64,000 nt of DNA from Chondrosia reniformis (Eukaryota > Porifera > Demospongiae > Chondrillida > Chondrillidae), in NCBI GenBank assembly GCA_947172415.1, contig OX359197.1, forward strand, positions 7,131,673-7,195,672, given 5' to 3'. Shown in pieces: positions 9,741 through 61,655 of the stretch. Numbering within the stretch: position 1 is the first letter of the stretch; each line of letters opens with the position of its first letter. Position numbers and translations under genes: made by a program. The notes below the pieces were generated by a model that was given only the letters and a program-made list of their open reading frames with translations, was not told the DNA's origin and searched no databases.

Positions 9741-10034
9741 AACTCTATCAAATGGAGAGATATGAAGCTAAATCTTTTTGTCAGCATTCACAGACATCCT
9801 ATAGAGCATGTCCAATGGGTTTTTAAATTTTGATGAAACTTAAAATTTGCCCTATCTCTCAACATACATTAACTTTGTAAACCCGAATTTAATGTACATT
9901 GAGGGCTTTAACTCTATCAAATGGAGAGATATCGAAGCTAAACCTTTGTGTCAGCATTCACAGACATCTATACAACATGGCCAATGGGTTTTTGAAATTT
10001 TGATGAAACGTAAAATTAAATTTGCCCTATCTCT

Positions 10035-17310: not shown

Positions 17311-17890
17311 GTAGTTCTGTAACTCTATCAAATGGAGAGATATGAAGCTAAATCTTTTTGTCAGCATTCACAGACATCCTATAGAGCATGTCCAATGGGT
17401 TTTTGAAATTTTGATGAAACTTAAAATTTGCCCTATCTCTCAACATACATTAACTTTGTAAACCCGAATTTAATGTACATTGAGGGCTTTAACTCTATCA
17501 AATGGAGAGATATCGAAGCTAAACCTTTGTGTCAGCATTCACAGACATCTATACAACATGGCCAATGGGTTTTTGAAATTTTGATGAAACAAAAAATTTG
17601 CCCTATCTCTCAACATACATTAACTTTGTAAACCTGAATTTAATGTACATTGAGGGCTTTAACTCTATCAAATGGAGAGATATGAAGCTAAACCTTTGTG
17701 TCAGCATTCACAGACATCTATACAACATGGCCAATGGGTTTTTGAAATTTTGATGAAACTTAAAATTAAATTTGCCCTATCTCTCACAATACATTAAATT
17801 TCTATACCAGAAGTAAATGTACATTGAGGGCTGTAACTCTATCAAATGGAGAGATATGAAGCTACATCTTTGTTTCAGCATTCACAGACA
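17311..17890 (+). repeat. Satellite array block C (about 3-4 monomers)
   Basis: Short run of forward monomers between cores 3 and 4. It is close in sequence to the start of block B (shared gagatatcgaagctaaac variant), which suggests the core-plus-arm unit was duplicated as a whole. Confidence 0.85.
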
Positions 17891-18935
17891 TCTAATAAAA
17901 ACCGGCCTAGTTGAAATATTGATCATAGACATAAATATCGTGCAGGCGATAAATATCGGACCTCTCACTATATCTAGTTTTCTGTATCACGAAAAGTCGC
18001 TCTTCTCCCTCCACCAAGACACATACAGGCTTATATCCATTTGCCACAGTTTTGAGATGTATTGGAAATACTGCGTATGTGTGTAAAATAGCTTAGAACG
18101 ATTCACTGGTCTGGAATCAAAGTGGAATAAATTGACGATTTCTCGAAAATAATTGGGATCAGAAAAGTCGTTCTCCTCGGCCCATCAAGACACTTACAGG
18201 ATTTTATCGCTTTTCCCAGTTTTCAGGTGAACCACTAATACTGCCTATGTCTTTAAGTGTGCTTGAAACAATTCACTGATCTGGAAATAACGAGAAATAT
18301 ATAAAAAAAGGTCCCAACCACAACCGTTTCCTTTGGACAAAACATCATATAAATAGAAGCGAAAAACCTTATATAGTAGGCCTACCTGGACACATCTCTA
18401 TGGTGGTTGCGGTTCCCATAGAGGTTGGTAGCGCTTAGACTCTGAAGCTGTCTCCTAATCGGTTGGTGCCATAGAGACGTGCTCACCAATAATCCGGATT
18501 TCGGGGGGGTTCCACGTAATGTGGGATTGGCATCTGATATCTTAGGATTCATATGAGTCGGCCATATCGAGAAGAACTGGTTCTTCTCACGCAAGTGACA
18601 CCCAAAGCTCAACTCGGCAGAGCGTTACCACCGATCCCGGCCTATGAGCGTCGTGGATGGTAGCGTTCGGTATGGTCCAAATTTTTTTCTTTGGAGTTTC
18701 GTTGGCTATCGATTGACGAAATTTCACTTTAACTAGATCCATATCAAAATATATGGATAGATAGTACTTCAATAACAATCAAGTACTACACAGTGCATAT
18801 CCTTATGTATAAAAAATTGGAAAGTATTCTAGATTTTCAGATATAGTTTGGAATTTTGTCTTTATTATATTATACCTTCTAACGGTCGGCCATATATAGT
18901 ATTACGCAATTTTCTCTAACAAAACAGTACATTAA
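17891..18935. mobile_element. Element core, copy 4 (left arm missing)
   Basis: Same structure as copies 2 and 3, with only scattered point differences such as gatttttttcgc changed to gattttatcgc near 18200. Confidence 0.75.
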
Positions 18936-19715
18936 CTGTAGTTCTGTAACTCTATCAAATGGAGAGATATGAAGCTAAATCTTTTGTCAGCATTCACAGA
19001 CATCCTATAGAGCATGTCCAATGGGTTTTTGAAATTTTGATGAAACTTAAAATTTGCCCTATCTCTCACCATACGTACATTAACTTTCTATACAGAAGCA
19101 AATGTACATTGAGGGCTGTAACTCTATCAAATGGAGAGATATGAAGCTAAATCTTTGTGTCAGCATTCACAGACATCTATACAACATGGCCAATGGGTTT
19201 TTGAAATTTTGATGAAACATAAAATTTGCCCTATCTCTCACAATACATTAACTTTGTAAACCTGAATTTAATGTACATTGAGGGCTGTAACTCTATCAAA
19301 TGGAGAGATATGAAGCTAAACATTTGTGTCAGCATTCACAGACATCTATACAACATGGCCAATGGGTTTTTGAAATTTTGATGAAACATAAAATTTGCCC
19401 TATCTCTCACCATACATTAACTTTCTATACAGAAGTAAATGTACATTGAGGGCTGTAACTCTATCAAATGGAGAGATATGAAGCTAAACCTTTGTGTCAG
19501 CATTCACAGACATCTATACAAAATGCCCAATGGGTTTTTGAAATTTTGATGAAACTTAAAATTTGCCCTATCTCTCACAATACATTAACTTTGTAAACCT
19601 GAATTTAATGTACGTACATTGAGGGCTGTAACTCTATCAAATGGAGAGATATGAAGCTAATTTTGATGAAACTTAAAATTTTCCTTTTCTCTCACCATAC
19701 ATTAACTGTCCATTT
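18936..19715 (+). repeat. Satellite array block D, terminal monomers
   Basis: Last four to five monomers. The final one has an internal deletion joining gagatatgaagctaa directly to ttttgatgaaac near 19655, and the array ends at cattaactgtccatttgatag before unique sequence begins. Confidence 0.85.
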
Positions 19716-26252: not shown

Positions 26253-29043
26253 TCATGACTGAACCAGCCTGACGTTCTCGAATCGATCTAAAGACATTTC
26301 AACCTAAGAAAAACAAAGAGATGAGACCAAATTAATGCTTGACTGACGAACACACATATTATACACACATATTTTAAGGAAACTGTAGCCACAATCAACA
26401 CCATTAGTCACACAAGCCTGTTCGGCTGATAGAGTAGAGACAAACCTCCTTCTGAAGCTCAGCTGGTTCTATCTCTCCCTCTCCCTCCCCTTCCTGCGCC
26501 AAGGCAAACTTGCCTTGCTGCATCTTTGACTCTGTAAACAGAAGAAAATTATCTCTATTAAAACCCTTTAAAATAGCACTTTTGTTGTCATGGAAACAGT
26601 AACTGTCCTACTGAAGGTGATGTCTCAGAAAGCAACAAAAGGTATAGGATAAGCAGAAATGAGGAACGGCTTGCAGTTACCAGACCTTTCTCCTTCTCCC
26701 TCTGAAGGGTTGCCTCTGTATAGCTGATCTTGACTGTCTTTGTCTCCTCGCTGACAGAGAGCACTACGGCCTCCTTATAGTCTGACAGTGTGGGAGTGTA
26801 ATCTGAGGTCATCTCCAGTACCTAACACACACAGTACAGAGTGACACATCAAGAGGACAAGATCCAGTGTTGGACCAACATTACTAGCATACCACACCAA
26901 GTGATAAGCGATCATACACACATACAGAGAGATCCCATATAATACATAGGGCTTTACTACCCCAATACACTGTACCAGTAAAGTAATACATTCAGATACA
27001 CACATTAATATACTTGCTACTCTATCATTGTACATGGATGTGCATGAGGAGATCTAATGACAGTTACATTGTTATGACAATTACTACATATAGTCACTAT
27101 CACGGGACTTTCCCACAGTGAAGAATATTCCTACATGTAGTCACTATCACGGGACTTTCCCACAGTGAAGAATATTCCTACATATAGTCACTATCACGGG
27201 ACTTTCCCACAGTGAAGAATATTCCTACATATAGTCACTATCACGGGACTTTCCCACAGTGAGAAAAATATTCAATGGGACAGAATGGCATCACCTGAAA
27301 TGCAATGTGGTCTCCCTCTCGAGGAGGCCCAGAGATCTTCTTTAGCGATGAATAGTCTCTTTCTTGCACAATCTCTGCTACTATAGACGAACCTACAGAT
27401 GTGGTTGCTAGGTTACCCGGCTTATTGTTTGTATATACTACACTGGTGGTCCTTAGGGTGTCACTGACTCCGCCCACAATTGGTGGGGCAGTACTCTGCT
27501 TTGAGCCATTCCCCCTACCCTTACCCTTGGTCCTGGATAAATTAGAGGGTTGTCCCCTTCCCCTCCCAAGAACAGCTTGTTTCAAGTTCCCAATGTTATT
27601 CTTCAGTGATGAAGCCACACTAGGTGGGCCCATATTGGGGGCCTGGGACGGCATTTCTGAACTCACTGGTCCATTACCAGTAGCAGAGGAAGTAGACTTT
27701 GGTGAAGGTGTACAACTTTGCTTCTTTCCCTTCTTGCCAATATCCATCTCCTCAGAATCGCTACTACTGGAACTGCTGCTAGTGCTGGAGTGGAACTTAG
27801 TGTGGACACCTCCAGTTTTAGACTTTGCTGATTTGGCATGTAGAGGTTGGTCTAATGGAAATAACACTTCTTCACATTCTACATCACAGAAATAGCATGC
27901 TAGCGAATATCTTTCATAAATTTGGGGCCAATTACACTATCTAGTTATATAGCACTGTATAGTTGGATGGTATACCAACTCACTCTTAGCAGTAGTTGGG
28001 TTCTTTGTATTTGTCACTTTAGCTGTTGTTAGTGTGGATAGAGTGACTTTAGCTGTTGTTTGTGTGGATGGAGTGACTTTAGCTGTTGTTTGTGTGGATG
28101 GAGTGACTTTAGCTGTTGTTTGTGTGGATGGAGTGAGTTTAGCTGTTGACACGTTAGTTGGTTCTTTGGAAACTGCACTGTCTTCACAACTTGAAGAACT
28201 GGACAATTGAGAATGTCTCTTAGAAGCATTTCCTTTCTTGTTGGATAACTTGACTTTGTGTGGAGAAGATTGAAGAGTCTTCTGTGATTTAGTGGTACTT
28301 GTCTCTGTGGACATGTGCTTTGACTTCTTGGGTTTAGAAGTGACTTCAACTTCAGTTGTATGTTTTCTCTTTTTTCCTTTTGACTGGTCACATTGAACAA
28401 CAGTGCATTTGACTCTAACACACAAAAGAACTACAAACGTACAACATTCTTAAATAGGAACTGTGTGACTGAAGGTATATAATATAGGGTATGGCAGGTA
28501 GTCTTATTTAGACTGGGAAGGCTATTATTACTGGACTACTATTAAGGCACCAGTGATAATGAGATATCTTACATTCCTAGCTTCACCATTTAATACAACA
28601 CTAATACCAAATATTACCTGTGGATGTACTGTATTGGTCCTTAAGACATGTTTAGTATACATCACTTATATCATTAGTTGTGGTACTACACAACATCAGA
28701 AAGTATATCTATAATGTCAATGTTAGGTACAACCTACTATAGACATACTGCAAAGTATAGCTCTTCGCTCGTATGTCAGTGTGCACATATGAAATGGACC
28801 AACATACCGAATTGTGTCGTTATCCTTTAGCAGATGAATGTCTTCTTGAGGGAGCAGCGCACAGTCGTCCATTGTGAGGTCCAGTTTGACGCCACGCAGA
28901 TCTTCAAAGAACCTCTTCTTGATGGCGCCACACAGATCAGCAATGATGGAACAGGATGTCAGATTCATGAGAAACCAAACGAACTGTGGACAAGCAGGAG
29001 GAGGGTTGACGAACAATAACTTCAACCTTATCGAGTCGGCCAT
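26253..29043 (-). CDS. COIL: Coilin, complete (about 499 aa, 6 exons)
   Basis: Exons 29043-28808, 28414-27984, 27851-27295, 26821-26681, 26529-26446 and 26303-26253; all phases agree. Exon 1 encodes the coilin N-terminal self-association domain (ubiquitin-like fold): VRLKLLF-like start, PPPACP, LCGAIKKRF, LLPQEDIHLLKDNDTIR. Exons 2-3 are a Lys/Ser/Thr linker with basic runs suited to nuclear import, a TTAKVTPSTQ repeat, an acidic Ser block (SSSSSDSEEMD) and Gly/Arg-rich GRGRGQP and KGKGRGNG. Exons 3-4 give the atypical Tudor-like C-terminal domain (ISGPPREGDHIAF, EMTSDYTPTLSDYKEA). Coilin scaffolds Cajal bodies and snRNP maturation. Exon 5 could start 2 bp earlier, but 26529 keeps the frame. 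This is the only full coilin in the window; its exons 1-2 are the source of five partial copies to the right. It lies 314 bp downstream of a TRIM-NHL gene. Confidence 0.88.
27090..27262. repeat. Four 47-bp tandem repeats, each with a kappaB-like site
   Basis: In coilin intron 3 the unit tagtcactatcacggga followed by ctttcccacagtgaagaat occurs four times with GGGACTTTCCC starting at 27104, 27151, 27198 and 27245. The 47-bp spacing is exact. GGGACTTTCC fits the GGGRNWYYCC Rel/NF-kappaB consensus. Enhancer activity is inferred only. Confidence 0.85.
28018..28142 (-). repeat. In-frame coding minisatellite in coilin exon 2
   Basis: A 30-bp unit encodes TTAKVTPSTQ with small variations; about five units are present here against one to three in the partial copies to the right. 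Length is a multiple of three, so copy-number change keeps the frame. The linker is low complexity and rich in Thr/Lys. Confidence 0.85.
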
Positions 29044-29357
29044 TTTACATCTTATTTGACTATAAGATGTTGATGTTTGTCGGCCATTTTGTGTTGTTTG
29101 ATTAGAAACTAAAAACTTTCTACAAAAATATTAATAGTGAAGATGTAGGGATGGCCAGTTTATAACATGGCTGCAGCTAACTATAACTTTTCGGCGGTTT
29201 TCAGCCTTTCGCTCCTATACAAATGTATAGGGAAAACGAAACAACTAGCTACCGTACTCTCTGATAATATCCAAAATTCAAACGAAAATAATTTTGAAGC
29301 AATTACAAAGCAGTAATCTATAAAGCATAGCTAATTAAAGCATATTCGTTATATCAG
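29044..29357. other. Spacer between TRIM-NHL T8 and coilin, likely coilin promoter
   Basis: Contains the coilin 5' flank. Near the coilin ATG, tttgtcggccattttgtg repeats the start-codon context, suggesting a small local duplication. The T8-proximal part carries the 3' flank shared with other TRIM copies (ttttgaagcaattacaaagc). The equivalent spacer in the amplified units is only 107-118 bp. Confidence 0.5.
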
Positions 29358-38708: not shown

Positions 38709-40465
38709 TCAAAATAGTCCAGTGTCCTTTTTCAGTGAAGTCTGCTTCCAAGGAGGCAGAGATGAGAAGTCTGTCCGTGACATTTTAAACACGTTCTACA
38801 TAAGGCACATACAATTATGTTTTGCTATGCAGACAAATAACAAAATACTAAATTAGTATACATTAAGCCAAGTATGACACTGGCAGGAGAAGGGACACAT
38901 GGAATCCACCAAGTATTTACCTTAAAGTCCTCATTGCCAAGGTAGGTTTCTAATTTCTTTGGATCAACTCCTTCAGGGTTTCTTTTTCAGCTCAGCCAGC
39001 GAGTATCTGTCTCTGCTGTCAAATCAAGCGTACTCACCCTTGGAGTAGTTGACGGCAGTCTCCAGTGCTAATCTTTTGTCTCTTATGAATCTCACTTGAG
39101 CATCTCCAGTAAACTGGTTCTTTTCTCTGAAACGTGGATCTGACTGCACCGGCCACCAGCCTGACCACACATAGATCTCATATTGAGCGTCCAATAGGAA
39201 GAGAGCTGAGGGTGATGGAGCAGACAGACTGTAAACAGGAGACCATTACAGCAAGGGGGAGTACCTGTGTTGTAGTGGCTTACCAGGTTGTTCACAAGAG
39301 TATAAGTCTGTTTGCAGGAAGGGAAAGGCTTCCGGCTCTCCTGTCCTGCAAGGATAGAGGACCTCTGTTGGGAGGAACTCTCCCGTAGACTCCACACTTG
39401 GAGCCAATTACATTATCTACTTATATAGCACTGTACAGTTGGGATGCTACACCAACTCACTCTTAGCAGTAGTTGGGTTCTTTGCATTTGTCACTTTAGC
39501 TGTTGTTTGTGTGGATGGAGTGACTTTAGCTGTTGTTTGTGTGGATGGAGTGACTTTAGCTGTTGACACGTTAGTTGGTTCTTTGGAAACTGCACTGTCT
39601 TCACAACTTGAAGAACTGGATGATTGAGAATGTCTCTTCGAAGCATTTCCTTTCTTGTTTGATAAATTGACTTTGTGTGGAGAAGATTGAAGAGTCTTCT
39701 GTGATTTAGTGGTACTTGTCTCTGTGGACATGTGTTTCGGCTTCTTGGGTTTAGAAGTGACTTCAACTTCAGTTGTATTTTTTCTCTTTTTTCCTTTTGA
39801 CTGGTCACATTGAACAACAGTGCATTTGACTCTAACACACAAAAGAACTACAAACGTACAACATTCTTAAATAGGAACTGTGTGACTGAAGGTATATAAT
39901 ATAGGGTATGGCAGGTAATCTTATTTAGACTGGGAAGGCTATTATTACTGGACTACTATTAAGGCACCAGTGATAATGAGATATCTATTCATTCCTAGCT
40001 TCACCATTTAATATAACACTAATACCAAATATTATCTGTGGATGTACTGTATTGGTCCTTAAGACATGTTTAGTATGCATCACTTATATCATTAGTTGTG
40101 GTACTACACAACATCAGAAAGTATATCTATAATGTCAATGTTAGGTACAACCTACTGTAGACATGCATACTGCAAAGCATTGCTCTTCGCTCGTATGTCA
40201 GTGTGCACATATGAAATGGACCAACATACCGAATTGTGTCGTTATCCTTTAGCAGATGAATGTCTTCTTGAGGAAGCAGCGCACAGTCGTCCATTGTGAG
40301 GTCCAGTTTGACACTACGCAGATCTTCGAAGAACCTCTTCTTGATGGCGCCACACAGATCAGCAATGACGGAACAGGATGTCAGATTCATGAGAAACCAA
40401 ACGAACTGTGGACAAGCAGGAGGAGGGTTGACGAACAATAACTTCAACCTTACCGAGTCGGCCAT
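38709..40465 (-). pseudogene. Unit 5 coilin-supervillin chimera, broken in the headpiece exon
   Basis: Coilin exon 1 (40465-40230) and exon 2 (39831-39461) are intact and in frame, and this copy keeps an extra TTAKVTPSTQ repeat. The junction to supervillin is at about 39400. Supervillin exon pieces at 39400-39284 and 39205-39038 are intact. The next exon has lost its acceptor and first two thirds through a deletion near 39015, and also carries a 5-bp deletion around 38977. The final exon 38795-38709 remains. Reading past the 39038 donor meets a stop within a few codons. Any product would therefore be coilin NTD, linker and a gelsolin-like piece without headpiece. Confidence 0.75.
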
Positions 40466-43484: not shown

Positions 43485-45820
43485 TCAAAATAGTCCAGCG
43501 TCCTTTTTCAGTGAAGTCTGCTTCCAAGGAGGCAGAGATGAGAAGTCCGTCCGTGACATTTTAAACACGTTCTACATAAGGCACATACAATTATGTTTTG
43601 CTATGCAGACAAATAACAAAATACTAAATTAGTATACATTAAGCCAAGTATGACACTGGTAGGAGAAGGGACACATGGAATCCACCAAGTATTTACCTTA
43701 AAGTCCTCATCTCCAAGGTAGGTTTCTAATTTCTTTGGATCAACTCCCTCGGGGAGAGGCTTCTTTTTCAGCTCAGCCAGCGAGTATCTGTCTCTGCTCA
43801 GCTTCTTCAGCTCCTCTGAAGCATCTGATCGATGAGGACTCTTGATGATCACAAAAGGTCTGTTAGCCTCGGCCACCTTCTTATCACTCTCCCAGGATGG
43901 AAAGAGATTGGTAAACCGCTGGTGTTCAAAACCAGCAGAGACAACGTAAACATGAGGCTCCATAATGCGACCAGTAGCTACACACAGGAAGACCAATTAA
44001 TCATATCAATACATAAGGATTCAAAAGTTAATAGAAAGTTAATAGAATAAGGATTCCTTTTAAACGCTAAAAAGTCGAAGGATGTACCATCCCAAAGATA
44101 GATTCAAAAGTTAATAGACGATGATTGAGAATGATTACCAATGGTTTGATTATCGCTTCATAGATTTTAACTGATAATTACGTTACATGTTATATTTGTA
44201 AGCACAACAAAATATTATTTATTTATTGAGAGCAGTCATTAGATAGGAAGGCAAATGATCCAATATTAAGCATTTATGAACTAGAGAAGTTAATTGCACT
44301 CAGCTGTACAGAGGCTATGATGATAAGCACATAATCACTGGAAATGTATTACACCAAACCAGCCAAGTGATATAAGCCATTTATGTTCACTGATATCAGT
44401 AAAATGTAATAAAATCTCTGCTGTCAAATCAAGTGTACTCACCCTTGGAGTAGTTGACGGCAGTCTCCAGTGCTAATCTTTTGTCTCTTATGAATCTCAC
44501 TTGAGCATCTCCAGTAAACTGATTCTTTTCTCTGAAACGTGGATCCGACTGCACCGGCCACCAGCCAGACCACACATAGATCTCATATTGAGCGTCCAAT
44601 AGGAAGAGAGCTGAGGGTGATGGGGCAGGCAGACTGTAAACAGGAGACCATTACAGCACGGGGGAGTACCTGTGTTGTAGTGGCTTACCAGGTTGTTCAC
44701 AAGAGTATAAGTCTGTTTGTAGGAAGGGAAAGGCTTCCAGCTCTCCTGTCCTGCAAGGATAGAGGACCTCTGTTGGGAGGAACTCTCCCGTAGACTCCAC
44801 ACTTGGAGCCAATTACATTATCTACTTATATAGCACTGTACAGTTGGGATGCTACACCAACTCACTCTTAGCAGTAGTTGGGTTCTTTGGATTTGTCACT
44901 TTAGCCGTTGTTTGTGTGGATGGAGTGACTTTAGCTGTTGACACGTTAGTTGGTTCTTTGGAAACTGCACTGTCTTCACAACTTGAAGAACTAGACGATT
45001 GAGAATGTCTCTTCGAAGCATTTCCTTTCTTGTTGGATAACTTGACTTTGTGTGGAGAAGATTGAAGAGTCTTCTGAGATTTAGTGATACTTGTCTCTGT
45101 GGACATGTGCTTTGGCTTCTTGGGTTAAGAAGTGACTTCAACTTCAGTTGTATTTTTTATCTTTTTTCCTTTTGACTGGTCACATTGAACAACAGTGCAT
45201 TTGACTCTAACACACAAAAGTACTACAAACGTACAACATTCTTAAATAGGAACTGTATGACTGAAGGTATATAATATAGGGTATGGCAGGTAATCTTATT
45301 TAGACTGGGAAGGCCATTATTACTGGACTACTATTAAGGCACCAGTGATAATGAAATATCTATATATTCCTAGCTTCACCATTTAATACAACACTAATAC
45401 CAAATATTATCTGTGGATATACTGTATTGGTCCTTAAGACATGTTTAGTGACATCACTTATATCATTAGTTGTGGTACTACACAACATCAGAAAGTATAT
45501 CTATAATGTCAATGTTAGGAACAACCTACTGAATAGACATACTGCAAAGCATAGCTCTTCGTTCGTATGTCAGTGTGCACATATGAAATGGACCAACATA
45601 CCGAATTGTGTCGTTATCCTTTAGCAGATGAATGTCTTCTTGAGGAAGCAGCGCACAGTCGTCCATTGTGAGGTCCAGTTTGACGCCACGCAGATCTTCT
45701 TCTTGATGGCGCCACACAGATCAGCAATGACGGAACAGGATGTCAGATTCATGAGAAACCAAACGAACTGTGGACAAGCAGGAGGAGGGTTGATAACTTC
45801 AACCTTACCGAGTCGGCCAT
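43485..45820 (-). pseudogene. Unit 4 coilin-supervillin copy, coilin part degenerate
   Basis: Coilin exon 1 (from 45820) has a 7-bp deletion after RLKL and a 10-bp deletion removing the KRFFE region, so the frame ends within about 25 codons. Exon 2 (45206-44866) has a nonsense codon (TCT TAA CCC, near 45126). The supervillin exons 44805-44689, 44610-44443, 43977-43697 and 43571-43485 are intact and would splice in frame among themselves. The unit is dead as a coilin fusion, while the supervillin part shows no lesion. Confidence 0.82.
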
Positions 45821-49008: not shown

Positions 49009-51284
49009 TCAAAATAGTCCAGCGTCCTTTTTCAGTGAAGTCTGCTTCCAAGGAGGCAGAGATGAGAAGTCCGTCCATGACATTTTAAACACGTTCTACA
49101 TAAGGCACATACAATTATGTTTTGCTATGCAGACAAATAACAAATACTAAATTAGTATACATTAAGCCAAGTATGACACTGGTAGGAGAAGGGACACATG
49201 GAATCCACCAAGTATTTACCTTAAAGTCCTCATCTCCAAGGTAGGTTTCTAATTTCTTTGGATCAACTCCCTTGGGGAGAGGCTTCTTTTTCAGCTCAAC
49301 CAGCGAGTATCTGTCTCTGCTCAGCTTCTTCAGCTCCTCTGAAGCATCTGATCGATGAGGACTCTTGATAATCACAAAAGGTCTGTTAGCCTCTGCCACC
49401 TTCTTATCACTCTCCCAGGATGGAAAGAGATTGGTGAACCGCTGGTGTTCAAAACCAGCAGACACAACGTAAACATGAGGCTCCACAATGCGACCAGTAG
49501 CTACACACAGGAAGACCAATTAATTATATCAATACATAAGAATTAAAAAGTTTATAGATGATAATTGAGAATGATTACCAATGGTTTGATTATCGCTTCA
49601 TAGATTTTAACTGATAATTATGTTACATGTTACATATTTGTAAGCACAACAAAATATTATTTATTTATTGAGAGCAGTAATTAGTTAGGAAGGCAAATGA
49701 TCCAATATTAAGCATTTATGAACTAAAGAAGTTAATTGCACTCAGCTGTGCAGAGGCTATGATCATAAGCACATAATCACTGGAAATGTATTACACCAAA
49801 CCAGCCAAGTGACATAAGCCATTCATGTTCACTGATATCAGTAAAATGTAAATAAAATCTAAGATGTCAAATCAAGTGTACTCACCCTTGGAGTAGTTGA
49901 CGGCAGTCTCCAGTGCTAATCTTTTGTCTCTTATGAATCTCACTTGAGCATCTCCAGTAAACTGGTTCTTTTCTCTGAAACGTGGATCCGACTGCACCGG
50001 CCACCAGCCAGACCACACATAGATCTCATATTGAGCGTCCAATAGGAAGAGAGCTGAGGGTGATGGGGCAGGCAGACTGTAAACAGGAGACCATTACAGC
50101 ACGGGGGAGTACCTGTGTTGTAGTGGCTTACCAGGTTGTTCACAAGAGTATAAGTCTGTTTGTAGGAAGGGAAAGGCTTCCGGCTCTCCTGTCCTGCAAG
50201 GATAGAGGACCTCTGTTGGGAGGAACTCTCCCGTAGACTCCACACTTGGAGCCAATTACATTATCTACTTATATAGCACTGTACAGTTGGGATGCTACAC
50301 CAACTCACTCTTAGCAGTAGTTGGGTTCTTTGTATTTGTCACTTTAGCTGTTGTTAGTGTGGATGGAGTGACTTTAGCTGTTGACATGTCATGACACGTC
50401 AGTTGGTTCTTTGGAAACTGCACTGTCTTCACAACTTGAAGAAATGGACGATTGAGAATGTCTCTTTGAAGCATTCCCTTTCTTGTTGGATAACTTGACT
50501 TTGTGTGGAGAAGATTGAAGAGTCTTCTGAGATTTAGTGGTACTTGTCTCTGTGGACATGTGCTTTTTTTGGGTTTAGAAGTGACTTCAACTTCAGTTGT
50601 ATTTTTTCTCTTTTTTCCTTTTGACTGGTCACATTGAACAACAGTGCATTTGACTCTAACACACAAAAGAACTACAAACGTACAACATTCTTAAATAGGA
50701 ACTGTGTGACTGAAGGTATATAATATAGGGTATGGCAGGTAATCTTATTTAGACTGGGAAGGCCATTATTACTGGACTACTATTAAGGCACCAGTGATAA
50801 TGAGATATCTATACATTCCTAGCTTCACCATTTAATACAACACTAATACCAAATATTACCTGTGGATATACTGTATTGGCCCTTAAGACATATTTAGTGA
50901 CATCACTTATATCATTAGTTGTGGTACTACACAACATCAGAAAGTATATCTATAATGTCAATGTTAGGTACAACCTACTATAGACATACTGCAAAGTATA
51001 GCTCTTCGTTCGTATGTCAGTGTGCACATATGAAATGGACCAACATACCGAATTGTGTCGTTATCCTTTAGCAGATGAATGTCTTCTTGAGGAAGCAGCG
51101 CACAGTCGTCCATTGTGAGGTCCAGTTTGACGCCACGCAGATCTTCAAAGAACCTCTTCTTGATGGCGCCACACAGATCAGCAATGACGGAACAGGATGT
51201 CAGATTCATGAGAAACCAAACGAACTGTGGACAAGCAGGAGGAGGGTTGACGAACAATAACTTCAACCTTACCGAGTCGGCCAT
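49009..51284 (-). CDS. Unit 3 predicted coilin-supervillin chimera (open frame)
   Basis: Exons: coilin 1 (51284-51049), coilin 2 (50655-50309), supervillin 50053-49886, 49500-49220 and 49095-49009. A further supervillin piece (about 50211-50132, acceptor ccaacag) can be included without changing frame. Coilin exon 2 ends in phase 1 and both possible acceptors are phase 1. The product would have the coilin N-terminal domain, a basic linker, a gelsolin-like segment (LFLLDAQYEIYVWSGWWP, FTNLFPSWES) and a villin headpiece ending KKDAGLF. The linker carries two indels that cancel, so about 55 residues are read in another frame without a stop. If unspliced, exon 2 stops a few codons after TTAKSELV. 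Existence of the transcript is inferred from splice sites and phases, not shown. Confidence 0.6.
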
Positions 51285-51402
51285 TTTATCTATAGACTAT
51301 TGAACTACGTAGATCTAAATATCTTTTGCGAAAATTCAATTAACATTAAATAATTTTGAAGTTACGAAGCAGTAATCTATAAAGCATATCTCGTTATATC
51401 AG

Positions 51403-53610
51403 TCAGAATATTAGTACTACAATTCTCTTGTTTCCACTGTCAGCAATATATAGATTTCCTTCATCACTGATAGCAAGTCCATAAGGAAGGTCCAACCCAA
51501 GATTATCAACTTTACCAACACACTGTCCATCTGGTGTGAAGATGGAGATTTTGTTAGCACTGTATGATGAAACTATTATGTATCCATCACTTGTGACTGC
51601 TATACCAGTGGGGCGCTTGACAATGCCTTCACCAAACTGTCGGATGTACCGTCCATCCTGATCATGTACTTTGATGCAATCGTTGTTATAATCTGTGATG
51701 TATACTAATCCATCTGGTGATATACATAGGTAACAGGGAGATCTAAAGCAACCTGCTCCACTGCCACGTGAACCAAAGAACATTAGGAACTGACCATTCT
51801 CTGTAAATACAGATATTCTATGATTGCCACTTTCTACTATAAAAAGGTGTCCCTCTTCATTGACTGCCACTCCCATAGGCCAACTTAATTGACCTTGCTT
51901 TGACCCTTGACCTCCAAACTGTCTCACTAGTTGACCAGTTGGAGTGTAGATCTTGATAACATGGTTGCTATAGTCACTATTGACAATGTTACCAGATTTG
52001 CTGAAAGTTATCCCATAGACATAGCCACAATCATTCTTAAATCTTCTCACAATTTGACCTGTCCTGTTAATAACAAGGATTTCTTTGGTGTTGTATTTTG
52101 CAGCATACAACATTCCATCTGATCCACAAGCTACTGCATAGCATGCTCCACCAATCATAATCTCTTTTTGGATTTCGTTCATCTTCTGAATATTCAATGG
52201 CTTAGCAACCTTCACCTCTATCGGACTGCCCACTACGTGGTGACCTCCGATGGTCACACTCAGCATACATTCGAGTGATGGAACACTCTTAAAGTGTACC
52301 TCATATGTGCCATCTCTCTTGTCTGTTGCCTTACCTCTCAGAGGAACACCTGCTGTCACAGGACAAAGGACAGCCAACACCTTTTCTCCTCCTCGGCACT
52401 CATTGCCTCTCTCATCTTTTGTGGTGACTTTGAAGGAAAATTCTTTCTTCTTCTGTATTTGAATGAAGACAGCACCGTCTTTGTTCTTCTTCAACCCTCT
52501 AATACTGCAGTTTGGTGGATGTGCCTGCAAGCAGACTCCTCCAAATGAAGACAATATCTTCTCTGTTTCGGATTGCTTGGAAGAGATAAACTGGATGGAT
52601 GGGTGAATGTAGCAAGATGGCTGAGGAGTATGTCCAGTAAGTTCAAACACTCGTTTGACCACCATCTTGGTCAAGTAAAGCTGTTCTTCTCTTCTTCCAT
52701 TTGAAAAGATGTCTTCTGAAAAGGAAAGAAAGTCCTCCCACTTCTTCATTTTAACTTGAAGCACTTTTCTCTGCTTGACAAGAGACTTTCTTCCGATTTC
52801 TTCTGTTTTCCTCACTTCACCAACAAGACTATCACATCTTCTAGTTACCATGGCAATTAGCTGTTCCTTCATTGCAAGGATCTCTCCCACAGCATCAGCG
52901 GACTGCTGTTGGAGACTAGCTTCACTGGCCTCCACTTCCTGAAGGGCATTGCTCAATGCCTTTGTCTGTCCCCTGGCAGACAGCACACACTGTGTCAGAG
53001 TGCTCCTGTTTAGCTCTCCCAGTTTGTCATTGATGAAGGACACACTGTGAGTCTTGTGGCCACCAACAGAATGACATATGGCACAGATCATCTGTTGACA
53101 GTCGTGACAGTATAGCTTCTTCTTTTCATTGTGTTCTGCGCATTGGAAAATATCTTCTTTTGTAGAGCCACCTTCTAAGGTTTCATTAATCGATTGGATT
53201 TGATGCCTCTTGAGTATTTTCTTTGATCTGTGAAGATCTACACACTCTTGGCAAATAAAGAAATCACAGTCTGAGCAGTAGCTCACGGCTGCCCTCTTCT
53301 CTTCGTGGTCCTCTTGACAGACCACTCCTTCCTTCTGATACTGACTGCTCACTGTCTTCCTCAGAGCAAAGGGATGGCTTGGAAGACCACCGGGAGGGAT
53401 GGAGAACACTTCATCACAGATCTCACAGGTCACTCCTTGTTGGAGCATCTTCTCCTGACACTCCACCTTCTCACACAAGGCCAGGGAGTGCAGACAAGGT
53501 AGACATTTAAGCTCTTCTACTCTCACTCCACAACTGACACAAGAGAGACTGAGATTAGTTGATGGAAAAGAAGAACTAGAAGTGGGTGGAACCTCTGGAA
53601 GCTCAGCCAT
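51403..53610 (-). CDS. TRIM-NHL protein T3 (735 aa, intronless)
   Basis: Full domain chain. Linker type is QIQSINETLEGG; NHL loops differ from the left-hand genes (LSWPMGV, MFFGSRGSGAGCFRSP, TDYNNDCIKV). The frame is open 48 codons upstream of MAEL through non-conserved spacer; MAEL is preferred. The first two thirds are almost identical to T1, including the private IVNSDYSNHV variant, whereas the last NHL blades differ. Confidence 0.87.
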   Translation of the reverse strand: MAELPEVPPTSSSSFPSTNLSLSCVSCGVRVEELKCLPCLHSLALCEKVECQEKMLQQGVTCEICDEVFSIPPGGLPSHPFALRKTVSSQYQKEGVVCQEDHEEKRAAVSYCSDCDFFICQECVDLHRSKKILKRHQIQSINETLEGGSTKEDIFQCAEHNEKKKLYCHDCQQMICAICHSVGGHKTHSVSFINDKLGELNRSTLTQCVLSARGQTKALSNALQEVEASEASLQQQSADAVGEILAMKEQLIAMVTRRCDSLVGEVRKTEEIGRKSLVKQRKVLQVKMKKWEDFLSFSEDIFSNGRREEQLYLTKMVVKRVFELTGHTPQPSCYIHPSIQFISSKQSETEKILSSFGGVCLQAHPPNCSIRGLKKNKDGAVFIQIQKKKEFSFKVTTKDERGNECRGGEKVLAVLCPVTAGVPLRGKATDKRDGTYEVHFKSVPSLECMLSVTIGGHHVVGSPIEVKVAKPLNIQKMNEIQKEIMIGGACYAVACGSDGMLYAAKYNTKEILVINRTGQIVRRFKNDCGYVYGITFSKSGNIVNSDYSNHVIKIYTPTGQLVRQFGGQGSKQGQLSWPMGVAVNEEGHLFIVESGNHRISVFTENGQFLMFFGSRGSGAGCFRSPCYLCISPDGLVYITDYNNDCIKVHDQDGRYIRQFGEGIVKRPTGIAVTSDGYIIVSSYSANKISIFTPDGQCVGKVDNLGLDLPYGLAISDEGNLYIADSGNKRIVVLIF

Positions 53611-54486
53611 TTGATTTGGTAATGGTGGGATGATGTGACTTTGAAATAAGAAAGGAGCTAAATATATCAAACTATATATGCTGTGTATACAGTACGTACA
53701 CGTAAACATTCTATATAATCTAGGAACTCTGCCATGGATATAGTTTAGTTTCATTTAGTAAGTTTCTTTTCAATTTCAAGAATGAGAATAATAGAAAATT
53801 TCCTGGTTTCGAGTGTCGACATCAGCATTATGAAGAAGAGTGTCTCCCTATCACTGATCTATTATATGTGCATGCATATGCATATATAGTTGTTGGCTGA
53901 TTTTGAGTGGAACCGCAGGAAGCTCAGCCATTTTGGAAATACTTGGGATCATGTGACTTTGAAATTAGGGAGGAGCTCAATATATCAAGCTATTCATTAT
54001 GTAAACAGTCCAAACCAATATTGTGTATGACAATGTAAATTTTACTTTCTAGAAGCTAAAATACTATCAATTAATAATTCATTTAGTGAGTTAGCATGGT
54101 TTTCAACTTAAGAATGGAAATTAATAATTAATAGAAAGGTTAATGATAGTCTCCTTTCTATTATATTAGACTGCCAAATTATACAACACATATACAGTGT
54201 TACTATAGAGTGTCTCCATCACTGATAGCAATACCATATATAGGACCATTCAATCTCCCGGGCCAGCAACCTATTTCTATTTGAGGTGGTCTCTCTATCT
54301 ATGGGTTAGGGCTCGGAGAAGGTCTCCCTATTAATCCACTACATGGCTTCTCACTATATACGACCTGTATCTGCAGTTGAACAGATAAACAGAATACTGT
54401 ACTCCTTTCTGATACAAGAAACATGCAAAATCAATTTTTACTATAATATGTACAATAATTAATATAACAAAAGTGCATTCAGTCCA
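53611..54486. promoter_or_regulatory. T3 upstream region with a relic TRIM start
   Basis: Near-copy of the T4 upstream region. A relic TRIM start and 5' flank lie at about 53908-54010 and still contain the tcatgtgac word that T3's own promoter has lost. No other gene seen. Confidence 0.55.
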
Positions 54487-56606
54487 TCAAAATAGTCCAG
54501 CGTCCTTTTTCAGTGAAGTCTGCTTCCTAGGAGGCAGAGATGAGAAGTCCGTCCATGACATTTTAAACACGTTCTACATAAGGCACATACAATTATGTTT
54601 TGCTATGCAGACAATAACAAATACTAAATTAGTATACATTAAGCCAAGTATGACACTGGCAGGAGAAGGGACACATGGAATCCACCAAGTATTTACCTTA
54701 AAGTCCTCATCTCCAAGGTAGGTTTCTAATTTCTTTGGATCAACTCCCTCGGGGAGAGGCTTCTTTTTCAGCTCAGCCAGCGAGTATCTGTCTCTGCTCA
54801 GCTTCTTCAGCTCCTCTGAAGCATCTGATCGATGAGGACTCTTGATGATCACAAAAGGTCTGTTAGTCTCGGCCACCTTCTTATCACTCTCCCAGGATGG
54901 AAAGAGATTGGTTAACCGCTGGTGTTCAAAACCAGCAGAGACAACGTAAACATGAGGCTCCACAATGCGACCAGTAGCTACACACAGGAAGACCAATTAA
55001 TCATATCAATACATGACCAATGAATCAATATATTAGGATTTAAAAGTTAATAGATGATAATTGAGAATGATTATCAATGGTTTCATTATCGCTTCATAGA
55101 TTTGAAATGATTTTAACATTACATTATATATTTAAAACACAACAAAATATTATTTATTTATTGAGAGCAGTCATTAGTTAGGAAGGCAAATGATCCAATA
55201 TTAAGTTTTTTATGAACTAAGGAAGTTAACAGAGGCTATGATGGTAATCAAATAATCACTGGAAATATATTACACCAAACCAGCCGAGTGACATAAGCCA
55301 TTTATGTTCACTGATATCAGTAAAATGTTAATAAAATCTCAGATGTCAAATCAAGTGTACTCACCTTTAGAGTAGCTGACGGCAGTCTCCAGTGCTAATC
55401 TTTTGTCTCTTATGAATCTCACTTGAGCATCTCCAGTAAACTGGTTCTTTTCTCTGAAACGTGGATCCGACTGCACCCACCAGCCAGACCACACATAGAT
55501 CTCATATTGAGCATCCAATAGGAAGAGAGCTGAGGGTGATGGGGCAGGCAGACTGTAAACAGGAGACCATTACAGCATGGGGGAGTACCTGTGTTGTAGT
55601 GGCTTACCAGGTTGTTCACAAGAGTATAAGTCTGTTTGTAGGAAGGGAAAGGCTTCCGGCTCTCCTGTCCTGCAAGGATAGAGGACCTCTGTTGGGAGGA
55701 ACTCTCCCGTAGACTCCACACTTGGAGCCAATTACATTATCTAGTTATATAGCACTGTACAGTTGGGATGCTACACCAACTCACTCTTAGCAGTAGTCGG
55801 GTTCTTTGTATTTGTCACTTTAGCTGTTGTTTGTGTGGATGGAGTGACTTTAGCTGTTGACACGTTAGTTGGTTCTTTGGAAACTGCACTGTCTTCACAA
55901 CTTGAAGAACTGGACGATTGACAATGTCTCTTCGAAGCATTCCCTTTCTTGTTGGATAATTTAACTTTGTGTGGAGAAGATTGAAGAGTCTTCTGAGATT
56001 TAGTGGTACTTGTCTCTGTGGACATGTGCTTTGGCTTCTTGGGTTTAGAAGTGACTTCAACTTCAGTTGTATGTTTTCTCTTTTTTCCTTTTGACTGGTC
56101 ACATTGAACAACAGTGCATTTGACTCTAACACACAAAAGAACTACAAACGTACAACATTCTTAAATAGGAACTGTGTGACTGAAGGTACATAATATAGGG
56201 TATGGCAGGTAATCTTATTTAGACTGGGAAGGCCATTATTACTGGACTACTATTAAGAAAGAAAGTATATCTATTAATGTCAATGTCAGGTACAACCTAC
56301 TATAGATATACTGCAAAGTATAGCTCTTCGTTCGTATGTCAGTGTGCACATATGAAATGGACCAACATACCGAATTGTGTCGTTATCCTTTAGCAGATGA
56401 ATGTCTTCTTGAGGAAGCAGCGCACAGTCGTCCATTGTGAGGTCCAGTTTGACGCCACGCAGATCTTCAAAGAACCTCTTCTTGATGGCGCCACACAGAT
56501 CAGCAATGACGGAACAGGATGTCAGATCCATGAGAAACCAAACGAACTGTGGACAAGCAGGAGGAGGGTTGACGAACAATAACTTCAACCTTATCGAGTC
56601 GGCCAT
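54487..56606 (-). CDS. Unit 2 predicted coilin-supervillin chimera (open frame)
   Basis: Exons: coilin 1 (56606-56371), coilin 2 (56125-55785), optional supervillin piece 55688-55608, then 55529-55365, 54977-54697 and 54573-54487. Phases match along the chain. Length is about 369 aa without and 396 aa with the optional piece. The coilin NTD is complete (LLPQEDIHLLKDNDTIR) and the linker is undamaged. The gelsolin-like segment lacks one codon (SGWWVQ rather than SGWWPVQ). In the headpiece the Trp of the LPPWKQ motif is Arg (CCT AGG AAG), which removes a conserved residue of the actin-binding face. Coilin intron 1 is shorter here, about 245 bp. The protein would combine a Cajal-body oligomerisation domain with an actin-binding module; expression and function are inferred only. 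Confidence 0.6.
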
Positions 56607-56713: not shown

Positions 56714-58921
56714 TCAGAGTACTAGTACAACAATTCTCTTGTTTCCATGGTCAGCAATATATAGATTTCCTTCATCACTGATAGCAAGACTAAAAGGAAG
56801 GTCCAACCCAAGATTATCAACTTCACCAACACATTGTCCATCTGGTGTGAAGATGGAGATTTTGTTAGCACTGTATGATGCAACTATTATGTGTCCATCA
56901 CTTGTGACTGCTATACCAGTGGGACACTTGACAATGTCTTCACCAAACTGTTGGATGTACCGTCCATCCTGATCATGTACTTTGATGCAATGATTGTTAC
57001 AGTCAGTGATGTACACTAATCCATCTGGTGATATACAGAGCTGCCAGGGAAATTGAAAGCAACCTGCTCCACTGCCACGTGAACCAAAGCACCTTAGGAA
57101 CTGACCATTCTCTGTAAATACAGATATTCTATGATTGCCATATTCTGCTATAAAAAGGTGTCCCTCCTCATTGACTGCCACTCCCATTGGATAGCTTAAT
57201 TGACCTTGCTTTGACCCTTCACCTCCAAACTGTCTTACTAGTTGACCAGTTGGAGTGTAGATCTTGATAATATGGTTGCTATAGTCAATAATGACAATGT
57301 TACCAGATTTGCTGAAAGTTATCCCATGGACAATACCACAATCATTCTTAAATCTTCTCGCAATTTGACCTGCCCTGTTAATAACAAGGATTTCTTTGGG
57401 ATTGCAATTTGCAGCATACAACATTCCATCTGATCCACAAGCTACTGCATAGCATTCTCCACCAATCTTAATCTCTTTTTGGATTTCGTTCATCTTCTTA
57501 ATATCCAATGGCTTAGCAACCTTCACCTCTACTGGACTGCCCGCTAAGTGGTGACCTCCGATGGTCACACTCAGCATACATTCAAGTGATGGAGCACTCT
57601 TAAAGTCTACCTCATATGTGCCATCTCTCTTGTCTGTTACTTTACCTCTCAGAGGAACACCTGCTGTCACAGGACAAAGGACAGCCAGCACCTTTTCTCC
57701 TCCTCTGCACTCATTGCCTCTCTCATCTTTGGTGATAACTTTGAAGGAAAATTCTTTCTTCTTCTGTATGTGAACAAAGGCAGCACCATCTTTGTTCTTC
57801 TCCAACCCTATAATACTGCAGTTTGGTGGATGTGCCTGCAAGCAGATTCCTCCAAATGAAGATAATGTCTTTTCTGTTTCGGATTGCTTGAAAGAGATGA
57901 ACTGGACAGATGGGTGAATGTAGCAAGATGGCTGAGGAGTATGTCCAGTAAGTTCATACACTCGTTTGACCACCATCTTTGTCAAGTAAAGCTGTTCTTC
58001 TCTTCTTCCATTTGAAAAGATGTCTTCTGAATTGGAAAGAAACTCCTCCCATTTCTTCATTTTAACTTGAAGCACTTTTCTCTGCTTGACAAGAGCTTTT
58101 CTTCCCTTTTCTTCCGTTTTCCTCACTTCACCAACAAGACTATCACATCTTCTAGTTACCATGGCAATTAGCTGTTCCTTCATTGTAAGGATCTTTCCTA
58201 CAGCATCAGCGGACTGCTGTTGGAGACTAGCTTCACTGGCCTCCACTTCCTGAAGGGCATTGCTCAATGCCTTTGTCTGTCCCCTGGCAGACAGCACACA
58301 CTGTGTCAGAGTGCTCCTGTTTAGCTCTCCCAGTTTGTCATTGATGAAGGACACACTGTGAGTCTTGTGGCCACCAACAGAATGACATATGGCACAGATC
58401 ATCTGTTGACAGTCGTGACAGTATAGCTTCTTCTTTTCATTGTGTTCTGAGCATTGGAAAATATCTTCTTTTGTAGAGCCACCTTCTAAGGTTTCATTAA
58501 TCGATTGAATTTGATGCCTCTTAAACATTTTCTTTGATCTGTGAAGATCTACACACTCTTGGCAAATAAAGAAATCACAGTCTGAGCAGTAGCTCACGGC
58601 TGCCCTCTTCTCTTTGTGGTCCTCTTGACAGACCACTCCTTCCTTCTGATACTGACTGCTCACTGTCTTCCTCAGAGCAAAGGGATGGCTTGGAAGACCA
58701 CCGGGAGGGATGGAGAACACTTCATCACAGATCTCACAGGTCACTCCTTGTTGGAGCATCTTCTCCTGACACTCCACCTTCTCACACAAGGCCAGGGAGT
58801 GCAGACAAGGTAGACATTTAAGCTCTTCTACTCTCACTTCACAACTGACACAAGAGAGACTGAGATTAGTTGATGGAAAAGAAGAATTAGAAGTGGATGG
58901 AACCTCTGGAAGCTCAGCCAT
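56714..58921 (-). CDS. TRIM-NHL protein T2 (735 aa, intronless)
   Basis: Full domain chain. Substitutions near the zinc sites spare the Cys/His residues (VSCEVRV instead of VSCGVRV). The coiled coil has KILTMKEQ and FLSNSEDIF. NHL loops are distinctive (LSYPMGV, IVIIDYSNHI, TDCNNHCIKV, IADHGNKRI). An in-frame upstream ATG exists at 58945. The stop lies 107 bp before coilin exon 1. Confidence 0.87.
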   Translation of the reverse strand: MAELPEVPSTSNSSFPSTNLSLSCVSCEVRVEELKCLPCLHSLALCEKVECQEKMLQQGVTCEICDEVFSIPPGGLPSHPFALRKTVSSQYQKEGVVCQEDHKEKRAAVSYCSDCDFFICQECVDLHRSKKMFKRHQIQSINETLEGGSTKEDIFQCSEHNEKKKLYCHDCQQMICAICHSVGGHKTHSVSFINDKLGELNRSTLTQCVLSARGQTKALSNALQEVEASEASLQQQSADAVGKILTMKEQLIAMVTRRCDSLVGEVRKTEEKGRKALVKQRKVLQVKMKKWEEFLSNSEDIFSNGRREEQLYLTKMVVKRVYELTGHTPQPSCYIHPSVQFISFKQSETEKTLSSFGGICLQAHPPNCSIIGLEKNKDGAAFVHIQKKKEFSFKVITKDERGNECRGGEKVLAVLCPVTAGVPLRGKVTDKRDGTYEVDFKSAPSLECMLSVTIGGHHLAGSPVEVKVAKPLDIKKMNEIQKEIKIGGECYAVACGSDGMLYAANCNPKEILVINRAGQIARRFKNDCGIVHGITFSKSGNIVIIDYSNHIIKIYTPTGQLVRQFGGEGSKQGQLSYPMGVAVNEEGHLFIAEYGNHRISVFTENGQFLRCFGSRGSGAGCFQFPWQLCISPDGLVYITDCNNHCIKVHDQDGRYIQQFGEDIVKCPTGIAVTSDGHIIVASYSANKISIFTPDGQCVGEVDNLGLDLPFSLAISDEGNLYIADHGNKRIVVLVL

Positions 58922-59391: not shown

Positions 59392-61655
59392 TCAAAATAG
59401 TCCAGCGTCCTTTTTCAGTGAAGTCTGCTTCCAAGGAGGCAGAGATGAGAAGTCCGTCCGTGACATTTTAAACATGTTCTACATAAGGCACATACAATTA
59501 TGTTTTGCTATGCAGACAAATAACAAATACTAAATTAGTATACATTAAGCCAAGTATGACACTGGCAGGAGAAGGGACACATGGAATCCACCAAGTATTT
59601 ACCTTAAAGTCCTCATCTCCAAGGAAGGTTTCTAATTTCTTTGGATCAACTCCCTCGGGGAGAGGCTTCTTTTTCAGCTCAGCCAGCGAGTATCTGTCTC
59701 TGCTGAGCTTCTTCAGCTCCTCTGAAGCATCTGATCGATGAGGACTCTTGATGATCACAAAAGGTCTGTTAGCCTCGGCCACCTTCTTATCACTCTCCCA
59801 GGATGGAAAGAGATTAGTGAACCGCTGGTGTTCAAAACCAGCAGAGACAACGTAAACATGAGGCTCCACAATGCGACCAGTAGCTACACACAGGAAGACC
59901 AATTAATCATATCAATACATTAGGATTCAAAAGTTTATAGATGATGATTGAGAATGATTACCAATGGTTTAATTATTGCTTCAGTGATTCATTGATGATT
60001 ACGTTACATGTTATATTTGTAAGCACAACAAAATATTATTTATTTATTGAGAGCAGTCATTAGTTAGGAAGGCAAATGATACAATATTAAGCATTTATGA
60101 ACTAAAGAAGTTAATTGCACTCAGCTGTACAGAGGCTATGATGATAAGCACATAATCACTGGAAATGTATTACACCAAACCAGCCAAGTGACATAAGCCA
60201 TTTATGTTCACTGATATCAGTAAAATGTTAATAAAATCTCAGATGTCAAATCAAGTGTACTCACCCTTGGAGTAGTTGACGGCAGTCTCCAGTGCTAATC
60301 TTTTGTCTCTTATGAATCTCACTTGAGCATCTCCAGTAAACTGGTTCTTTTCTCTGAAACGTGCATCCGACTGCACCGGCCACCAGCCAGACCACACATA
60401 GATCTCATATTGAGCATCCAATAGGAAGAGAGCTGAGGGTGATGGGGCAGGCAGACTGTAAACAGGAGACCATTACAGCAAGGGGGAGTACCTGTGTTGT
60501 AGTGGCTTACCAGGTTGTTCACAAGAGTATAAGTCCGTTTGTAGGAAGGGAAAGGCTTCTGGCTCTCCTGTCCTGCAAGGATAGAGGACCTCTGTTGGGA
60601 GGAACTCTCCCGTAGACTCCACACTTGGAGCCAATTACATTATCTAGTTATATAGCACTGTACAGTTGGGATGCTACACCAACTCACTCTTAGCAGTAGT
60701 TGGGTTCTGTCTATTTGTCACTTTAGCTGTTGTTTGTGTGGATGGAGTGACTTTAGCTGTTGACACGTTAGTTGGTTCTTTGGAAACTGCACTGTCTTCA
60801 CAACTTGAAGAACTAGACGATTGAGAATGTCTCTTTGAAGCATTCCCTTTTTTTGTTGGATAATTTGACTTTGTGTGGAGAAGATTGAAGAGTCTTCTGT
60901 GATTTAGTGGTACTTGTCTCTGTGGACATGTGTTTTGGCTTCTTGGGTTTAGAAGTGACTTCAACTTCAGTTGTATTTTTTCTCTTTTTTCCTTTTGACT
61001 GGTCACATTGAACAACAGTGCATTTGACTCTAAGAACTACAAACGTACAACATTCTTAAATGGGAACTGTGTGACTGAAGGTAGCATATAATATAGGGTA
61101 TGGCAGGTAATCTTATTTAGACTGGGAAGGCCATTATTACCGGACTACTATTAAGGCACCAGTGATAATGAAATATCTATTCATTCCTAGCTTCACCATT
61201 TAATATAACACTAATACCAAATATTACCTGTGGACATACTGTATTGGTCCTTAAGACATGTTTAGTATACATCACTTATATCATTAGTTGTGGTACTACA
61301 CAACATCAGAAAGTATATCTATAATGTCAATGTTTGGTACAACCTACTGAATAGATATACTGCAAAGCATAGCTCTTCGTTCATATGTCAGTGTGCACAT
61401 ATGAAATGGACCAACATACCGAATTGTGTCGTTATCCTTTAGCAGATGAATGTCTTCTTGAGGGAGCAGCGCACAGTCGTCCATTGTGAGGTCCAGTTTG
61501 ACGCCACGCAGATCTTCAAAGAACCTCTTCTTGATGGCGCCACACAGATCAGCCATAACGGAACAGGACGTCAGATTCATGAGAAACCAAACGAACTGTG
61601 AACAAGCAGGAGGAGGGTTGACGAACAATAACTTCAACCTTACCGAGTCGGCCAT
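59392..61655 (-). pseudogene. Unit 1 coilin-supervillin copy with a frameshift in the linker
   Basis: Coilin exon 1 (61655-61420) is intact. Exon 2 (61029-60688) has one extra T in a poly-T run (ccctttttttg at about 60844-60854), so its length no longer fits the phases and the chimeric frame is lost. The exon 2 acceptor has also lost part of its pyrimidine tract. Supervillin exons about 60626-60511, 60432-60265, 59883-59603 and 59478-59392 are intact. A homopolymer sequencing error could explain the single extra base. Confidence 0.72.

Follow-up and report, generated by a model that had tools for sequence, protein, structure and literature searches.

In Drosophila melanogaster, the AnxB10-sw chimera Sdic arose by a segmental duplication that fused two adjacent genes and was then expanded in tandem; wide gene conversion, an effect on sperm competition and coding selection are described for it in the sections of the report drawn on here (PMC7475035). 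In Drosophila yakuba, chimeric structures formed by tandem duplication are described, in the part of the study used, as population variants with RNA data (PMC5460883). Here I analyse a stretch of 64,000 nucleotides (the window) of the sponge Chondrosia reniformis, part of contig C9 in a searched genome of 117 Mb, which holds part of an array of chimeras joining the start of a coilin gene to the end of a supervillin-type gene. The chimeras are probably a by-product of gene amplification after a tandem duplication, with the fused frame carried along mostly as a passenger and not maintained as a protein family.

As far as the sections consulted describe it, Sdic is the closest precedent: there, as apparently in the sponge, a duplication fused two genes and the chimera expanded in tandem between surviving parents, and gene conversion, reported in Sdic, is suspected in the sponge array (PMC7475035). 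However, Sdic is under coding selection, whereas the sponge chimera is predicted from DNA and, for the splice forms that do not skip an exon, 13 of its 23 array units are broken; the sponge unit also carries a third whole gene, of the TRIM-NHL type, unlike Sdic as described there (PMC7475035). The D. yakuba structures resemble the sponge locus in that duplication end points in two genes yield a new combination of 5' and 3' ends, but they are population variants in that account, whereas the sponge chimera has been amplified to 23 junction copies (PMC5460883). No paper pairing coilin with supervillin was found in the open-licence library searched. The pairing is new to me, although the kind of event is already known.

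Structure of the array and its chimeric units

Read along the minus strand, the array runs from a supervillin-type gene through repeated units, each a TRIM-NHL gene plus a chimera, to a coilin gene. Between these two parental genes, which stand at opposite ends (coilin on the left, the longer supervillin-type gene on the right), a coilin-supervillin junction of one kind occurs 23 times (C9:7171084-7291846). The parents are as follows (here and below, positions without a contig are those of the window).

26253..29043, minus strand: parental coilin gene, open six-exon model of 507 amino acids, with Coilin_N and Tudor_Coilin
C9:~7295950-7305400, minus strand: right-end supervillin-type gene, 5' end not reached

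The Tudor_Coilin match of the parental coilin has an E-value of 2.8e-14 (Pfam). That this gene counts as intact hinges on its exon 4 donor, gtctgg, which was chosen by hand to keep the frame open; an earlier model, which lost the frame after exon 4, was dropped in its favour. Intron 2 is of phase 1 in the model made here. At the other end of the array, four upstream frames of the supervillin-type gene were scanned against Pfam, and one held a gelsolin repeat that passed the cut-off (E 1.2e-6) while two held repeats that fell short; a 743-residue upstream frame had no Pfam match, and an NCBIfam scan of two upstream frames gave nothing over the cut-off. I take the whole gene to be supervillin and not another villin-gelsolin relative, a tentative assumption made from its tail.

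The chimeric units combine pieces of both parents. The original prediction, made from the window's letters, held that two of them (units 2 and 3) consist of coilin exons 1 and 2 followed on the same strand by the last supervillin exons, and both the arrangement and its coordinates proved right. Below, E1 and E2 are the coilin exons and Sa to Sd the supervillin exons.

56606-54487, minus strand: unit 2, whole
56371..56606, minus strand: unit 2 E1, start codon at 56606
55785..56125, minus strand: unit 2 E2, donor AAGA|gtgagt, phase 1
55722..55784, minus strand: unit 2, what is left of coilin intron 2 before the breakpoint; the letters in common end in ...GGCTCCAA
55714..55721, minus strand: unit 2, 8-nucleotide filler linking coilin intron 2 to the supervillin exon
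55689..55713, minus strand: unit 2, former supervillin exon letters (TCTACGGG...CCAACAG), now intronic, ending in the acceptor ccaacag
55608..55688, minus strand: unit 2 Sa, optional 81-nucleotide exon, the remainder of the parental exon
55365..55529, minus strand: unit 2 Sb, acceptor ccctcag
54697..54977, minus strand: unit 2 Sc
54487..54573, minus strand: unit 2 Sd, the last supervillin exon, with the headpiece end and stop
51284-49009, minus strand: unit 3, whole
51049..51284, minus strand: unit 3 E1
50309..50655, minus strand: unit 3 E2, with a compensated frameshift (-4 near 50566, +10 near 50396)
50131..50211, minus strand: unit 3 Sa, optional
49886..50053, minus strand: unit 3 Sb
49220..49500, minus strand: unit 3 Sc
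49009..49095, minus strand: unit 3 Sd, the last supervillin exon, with the stop

E1 is 236 nucleotides long, and E2 341 in unit 2 and 347 in unit 3. Supporting the assignment of the fused parts, the head of the chimera matches Coilin_N (Pfam, E 1.2e-24) and its tail the villin headpiece family VHP (Pfam, E 3.1e-13); among solved structures the tail is best matched by the supervillin headpiece 2k6m (E 1.2e-17), with villin next (E 1e-15). The C-terminal Tudor-like domain is not in the chimera, the coilin part of which stops at exon 2 and gave Coilin_N only in the Pfam scan. A genome search for Tudor_Coilin returned no matches, but it also missed the parental gene, where introns split the domain, and absence elsewhere is not implied. 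Nor does the chimera have the long N-terminal region and the full set of gelsolin-like repeats, since it begins inside a late supervillin exon; the upstream supervillin exons are present only in the right-end gene.

Compared with the parents, the junction passes from coilin intron 2 through the eight filler letters into the middle of a supervillin exon. Because it enters there, the acceptor ccaacag is former exon sequence, and the same letters are exonic in the parental supervillin gene; the acceptor ccctcag continues the parental frame in phase 1. The phase 1 ending of coilin exon 2 had been predicted, and it is seen in unit 2 and agrees with the parental intron 2. Since that intron is of phase 1, an in-frame join is a one-in-three event per acceptor by chance. 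Both acceptors keep the frame to the headpiece stop, as foreseen: the predicted products of unit 2 have 396 amino acids with Sa and 369 without it, from donor to acceptor distances of 96 (Sa) or 255 (Sb) nucleotides, and unit 3 is open in both forms. The follow-up also turned up two features absent from the prediction. In unit 3 the frames are kept only because the 10-nucleotide insertion in exon 2 makes up for the 4-nucleotide deletion there, and about 57 linker codons between the two are read in another frame. A third predicted splice form skips exon 2, joining exon 1 in frame to an inner Sa acceptor (ccttgcag).

Integrity of the fused frame

With splice sites in place, 9 of the 23 array units are open in the form with Sa, 10 in the form without it and 13 in the form that skips exon 2; 13 are open in at least one of the three, and 13 are broken for both non-skipping forms. 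One further unit has an open frame but has lost the donor after Sc. Three units with lesions lie in the window.

59395..61655, minus strand: unit C9_7191067, +1 in coilin exon 2, broken for the non-skipping forms and open if exon 2 is skipped
43488..45808, minus strand: unit C9_7175160, broken (coilin exon 1 has lost 17 nucleotides); the upper coordinate is approximate
38712..40465, minus strand: unit C9_7170384, broken, deletion reaching into Sc

Genome searches scored the best candidates only, and the copies on other contigs are therefore a lower bound. At least four chimeric units on contig C3 share the junction type of the array; among the four examined, none is open for the non-skipping forms and one is open for the skipping form. 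Contig C7 carries at least two tandem units (C7:2944450-2952600; loci L007, L023, L047, L053 and L056) with a different junction, from inside coilin exon 3 to inside Sb, which is out of frame in both, and neither is open for the non-skipping forms. Because the C7 junction is out of frame, it seems that such junctions form regardless of frame. Furthermore, the chimera is kept less well than its neighbour: the non-skipping forms are open in 10 of 23 units, whereas 23 of 28 TRIM-NHL copies are open (Fisher p=0.007) despite a frame of roughly double the length. Thus, of the chimeric gene with a preserved frame that had been proposed, the open, spliceable frame stands as a prediction, but its preservation does not, with 13 of 23 array units, all four examined on C3 and both on C7 broken for the non-skipping forms.

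Substitution patterns

Is the fused frame nevertheless under selection? Changes restricted to one unit (private changes) were compared with a neutral expectation taken from the intron spectrum, as nonsynonymous (N) to synonymous (S) counts. In E1 they stand at 14N:4S against 11.1:4.7 expected, which is indistinguishable from neutral. In Sb-Sd they stand at 26N:17S against 35.2:14.9 (p=0.11), and by this measure the supervillin half is at most weakly constrained; in frame-intact units alone they are 13N:9S (p=0.18; omega ~0.61). Private changes in E2 of frame-intact units are 14N:9S against 10.0:3.8 (p=0.16), and over the C9 units used 50N:15S plus six stops, a count inflated by frameshifted rows. 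Mean pairwise divergence among 17 units spans 0.017-0.040 across the exons and 0.019-0.057 across the introns, with E1 (0.024) and E2 (0.040) inside the intron range.

Other measures weigh against a mere passenger. Pairwise ratios of nonsynonymous to synonymous divergence (dN/dS; NG86 with codon bootstrap, confidence intervals in brackets) among 11 frame-intact units, counting the unit that lacks its donor after Sc and another that is open only if Sa is left out, are 0.17 (0.07-0.33) in the supervillin half, 0.48 (0.17-1.74) in E1 and 0.48 (0.27-0.86) in E2. Frame-broken C9 and C3 units give 0.22 (0.07-0.60) in E1, 0.48 (0.32-0.74) in E2 and 0.22 (0.13-0.36) in the supervillin half; that these intervals lie below one tells slightly on the same side, as does the number of units open when exon 2 is skipped. 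The private supervillin changes of frame-broken units are nominally low in amino-acid changes (15N:13S, p=0.046; omega ~0.49), and the variants common to at least two C9 units also hold fewer of them, at 3N:5S in E1, 23N:15S in E2 and 7N:13S in Sb-Sd. In the supervillin exons of frame-intact units, changes fall 9, 8 and 24 times at codon positions 1, 2 and 3. Frame-shifting gap patterns number 11 over 1191 reference nucleotides of exon and 28 over 929 of intron in the 17 units, intron 4 alone supplying 13 of the 28, and their scarcity in exons counts for some constraint. Between the parent and frame-intact units, dN/dS is 0.39 in E1, 0.57 in E2 and 0.18 in the supervillin half.

These counts rest on selected units. 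The exon alignments exclude exons far from the reference length and both C7 units. The near-identical units C9_7222865 and C9_7228389 are dropped from the private counts on C9 and both kept in pairwise dN/dS, while the frame-broken set for shared and private changes drops only C9_7222865. E1 counts exclude units with indels or truncation in exon 1 (seven on C9, two on C3), and E2 counts exclude unit 3 and, in pairwise dN/dS and shared-variant counts, C9_7228389 too. C9_7277007 is omitted from Sb-Sd and C9_7284855 from Sa in the private-change test, and the intron comparison uses 17 of 23 units, with four badly broken and the two near-identical units left out.

Origin of the array

Parents at both ends and 23 like junctions between them point to a tandem duplication followed by unequal exchange. 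I infer the following order of events. A duplication running from the interior of a late supervillin exon through the TRIM-NHL gene to coilin intron 2 would have set the 5' end of coilin before the 3' end of supervillin. As phase 1 is shared by coilin intron 2 and the supervillin intron that comes next, the resulting junction can be spliced in frame. Unequal crossing over and gene conversion may then have multiplied the unit between the surviving parents, up to 23 junction copies, while further copies came to lie on other contigs. Selection on the TRIM-NHL gene would be the driver of this expansion. The fused frame, which may be transcribed and spliced, would be mostly a passenger of TRIM-NHL amplification, decaying copy by copy.

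One challenge is that of a working gene family, in which 10 to 13 units express a protein with coilin self-association and the actin-binding tail of supervillin, and the broken units are the usual pseudogenes. Three in-frame splice forms, the 10 to 13 open units, the pairwise dN/dS values of 0.17 (supervillin half) and 0.48 (coilin exons), and the few shared amino-acid variants in Sb-Sd all speak for it. The idea of a functional fusion stays alive because of that value of 0.17 in frame-intact units, and shared variants that look filtered may also keep it in play. However, private changes in E1 are indistinguishable from neutral, supervillin values are alike in frame-intact and frame-broken units, and the open fraction is smaller than in TRIM-NHL, which together make such a family improbable. 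More specifically, those 10 to 13 units might make new actin-binding condensate proteins, with a coilin domain, a direct or variable linker and a gelsolin-headpiece tail, which is less probable still. A quite different alternative is that coilin head and supervillin tail are separate dead fragments, never in one transcript. Coilin exon 2, if unspliced, does run to a stop at TTAKSELV. Yet all 23 array units have the exon 2 donor GT and the Sa acceptor AG, 22 of them have the Sb acceptor AG as well, and the gap in unit 2 is only 96 or 255 nucleotides; this explanation is unlikely.

Why, then, is pairwise dN/dS low? Strong purifying selection was not taken at face value, because the private changes disagree with it and the shared variants are mosaic among units, some with the parental letter (e.g. 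Sc positions 31, 37, 106 and 217), as expected under unequal exchange. The constraint of the supervillin half could instead be borrowed, if the end exons of the parent, which sit within the same repeat context, swap sequence with the units and variants are filtered in the parent. Several mosaic variants match the parental letter and frame-broken units are similarly low, in keeping with this, but many shared variants are absent from the one parental haplotype seen. On balance I lean slightly towards borrowed constraint, which is compatible with a duplication by-product and could lie behind both the low pairwise dN/dS and the filtered shared variants. A weak constraint that is blind to whether the frame is intact is better explained by exchange with parental exons than by a maintained fusion. 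The original prediction was partly upheld. On selection the measures diverge: pairwise dN/dS between units is below one, but private changes are indistinguishable from neutral in E1 and indicate at most weak constraint in the supervillin half. The proposed amplified family maintained to make a new protein finds no support, because constraint is not tied to an intact frame and the frame is kept worse than that of the neighbouring TRIM-NHL gene.

The TRIM-NHL gene and other features of the locus

The third gene of the repeat unit resembles TRIM-NHL proteins (TRIM subfamily C) as outlined in the part of PMC3503706 used here, having a B-box, filamin and NHL repeats; the difference is that the Pfam matches of the single array copy scanned included no RING domain. 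Two copies in the window are listed.

56714..58918, minus strand: TRIM-NHL gene (B-box, filamin, NHL repeats), single open frame
51403..53754, minus strand: open frame of the TRIM-NHL gene in the next unit, taken from the first ATG, with the MAELP start inside

Across the region (window 29358-64000, C9:7161030-7295214), the 23 of 28 copies counted as open have a frame of at least 700 residues, three are full-length but broken and two are fragments. Among those 23, dN/dS is 0.35 (0.24-0.51) in the first third and 0.92 (0.69-1.22) in the NHL third, and private changes in 21 copies are 37N:37S and 123N:42S, respectively. This pattern suggests that the front of the protein is constrained and its NHL end drifting or diversifying. 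With most of its copies open and an NHL end prone to change, the TRIM-NHL gene looks a likelier target of selection than the chimera.

Upstream of coilin exon 1, 17 of 19 aligned units are without about 210 base pairs that are present upstream of the parental coilin start; the exceptions are C9_7272220, with a partly aligned stretch, and C9_7233456, whose row does not align with the rest. Loss of a promoter from the chimeric units was considered and dropped, since part of this stretch recurs elsewhere and the parent may have gained it later by insertion. The recurring piece, about 100 bases within window 29047-29345, is found at 37 other genome places (best 40 of 538 candidates), and is perhaps a small mobile repeat.

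Coilin exon 2 contains an in-frame 30-base repeat (e.g. window 28150-28010) that differs in copy number among units, and in the parental coilin and two units this exon exceeds that of unit 2 by about 90 bases. A 9.2-kb block (C9:7171856-7181056) is repeated 47,705 bases away at 99.9% identity, which reflects either a recent duplication within the array or an assembly effect. Elsewhere in the window, positions 4420-19521 hold dozens of copies of a satellite-like tandem repeat that recurs about every 169 bases. Outside the array, a supervillin-type fragment 91-93% like the parent is fused to a piece of a TRIM gene (C7:2846500-2852500; L074), and older TRIM copies with coilin exon 1 behind them, 75-86% identical by blastn, lie at C9:1578000-1589500 (L075, L076), where the coilin part holds stops.

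Significance

Were a functional fusion to prove real, it would amount to an actin-binding condensate family that arose through duplication and was made partly uniform by gene conversion. As a probable duplication by-product, the array is a clean natural record of the birth of a chimeric gene, with both parents, the breakpoint and 23 copies at several stages of decay, and this record extends to another junction between the two genes, out of frame and in a different part of the genome. Claims that an open frame makes an amplified chimera necessarily functional can be measured against it.

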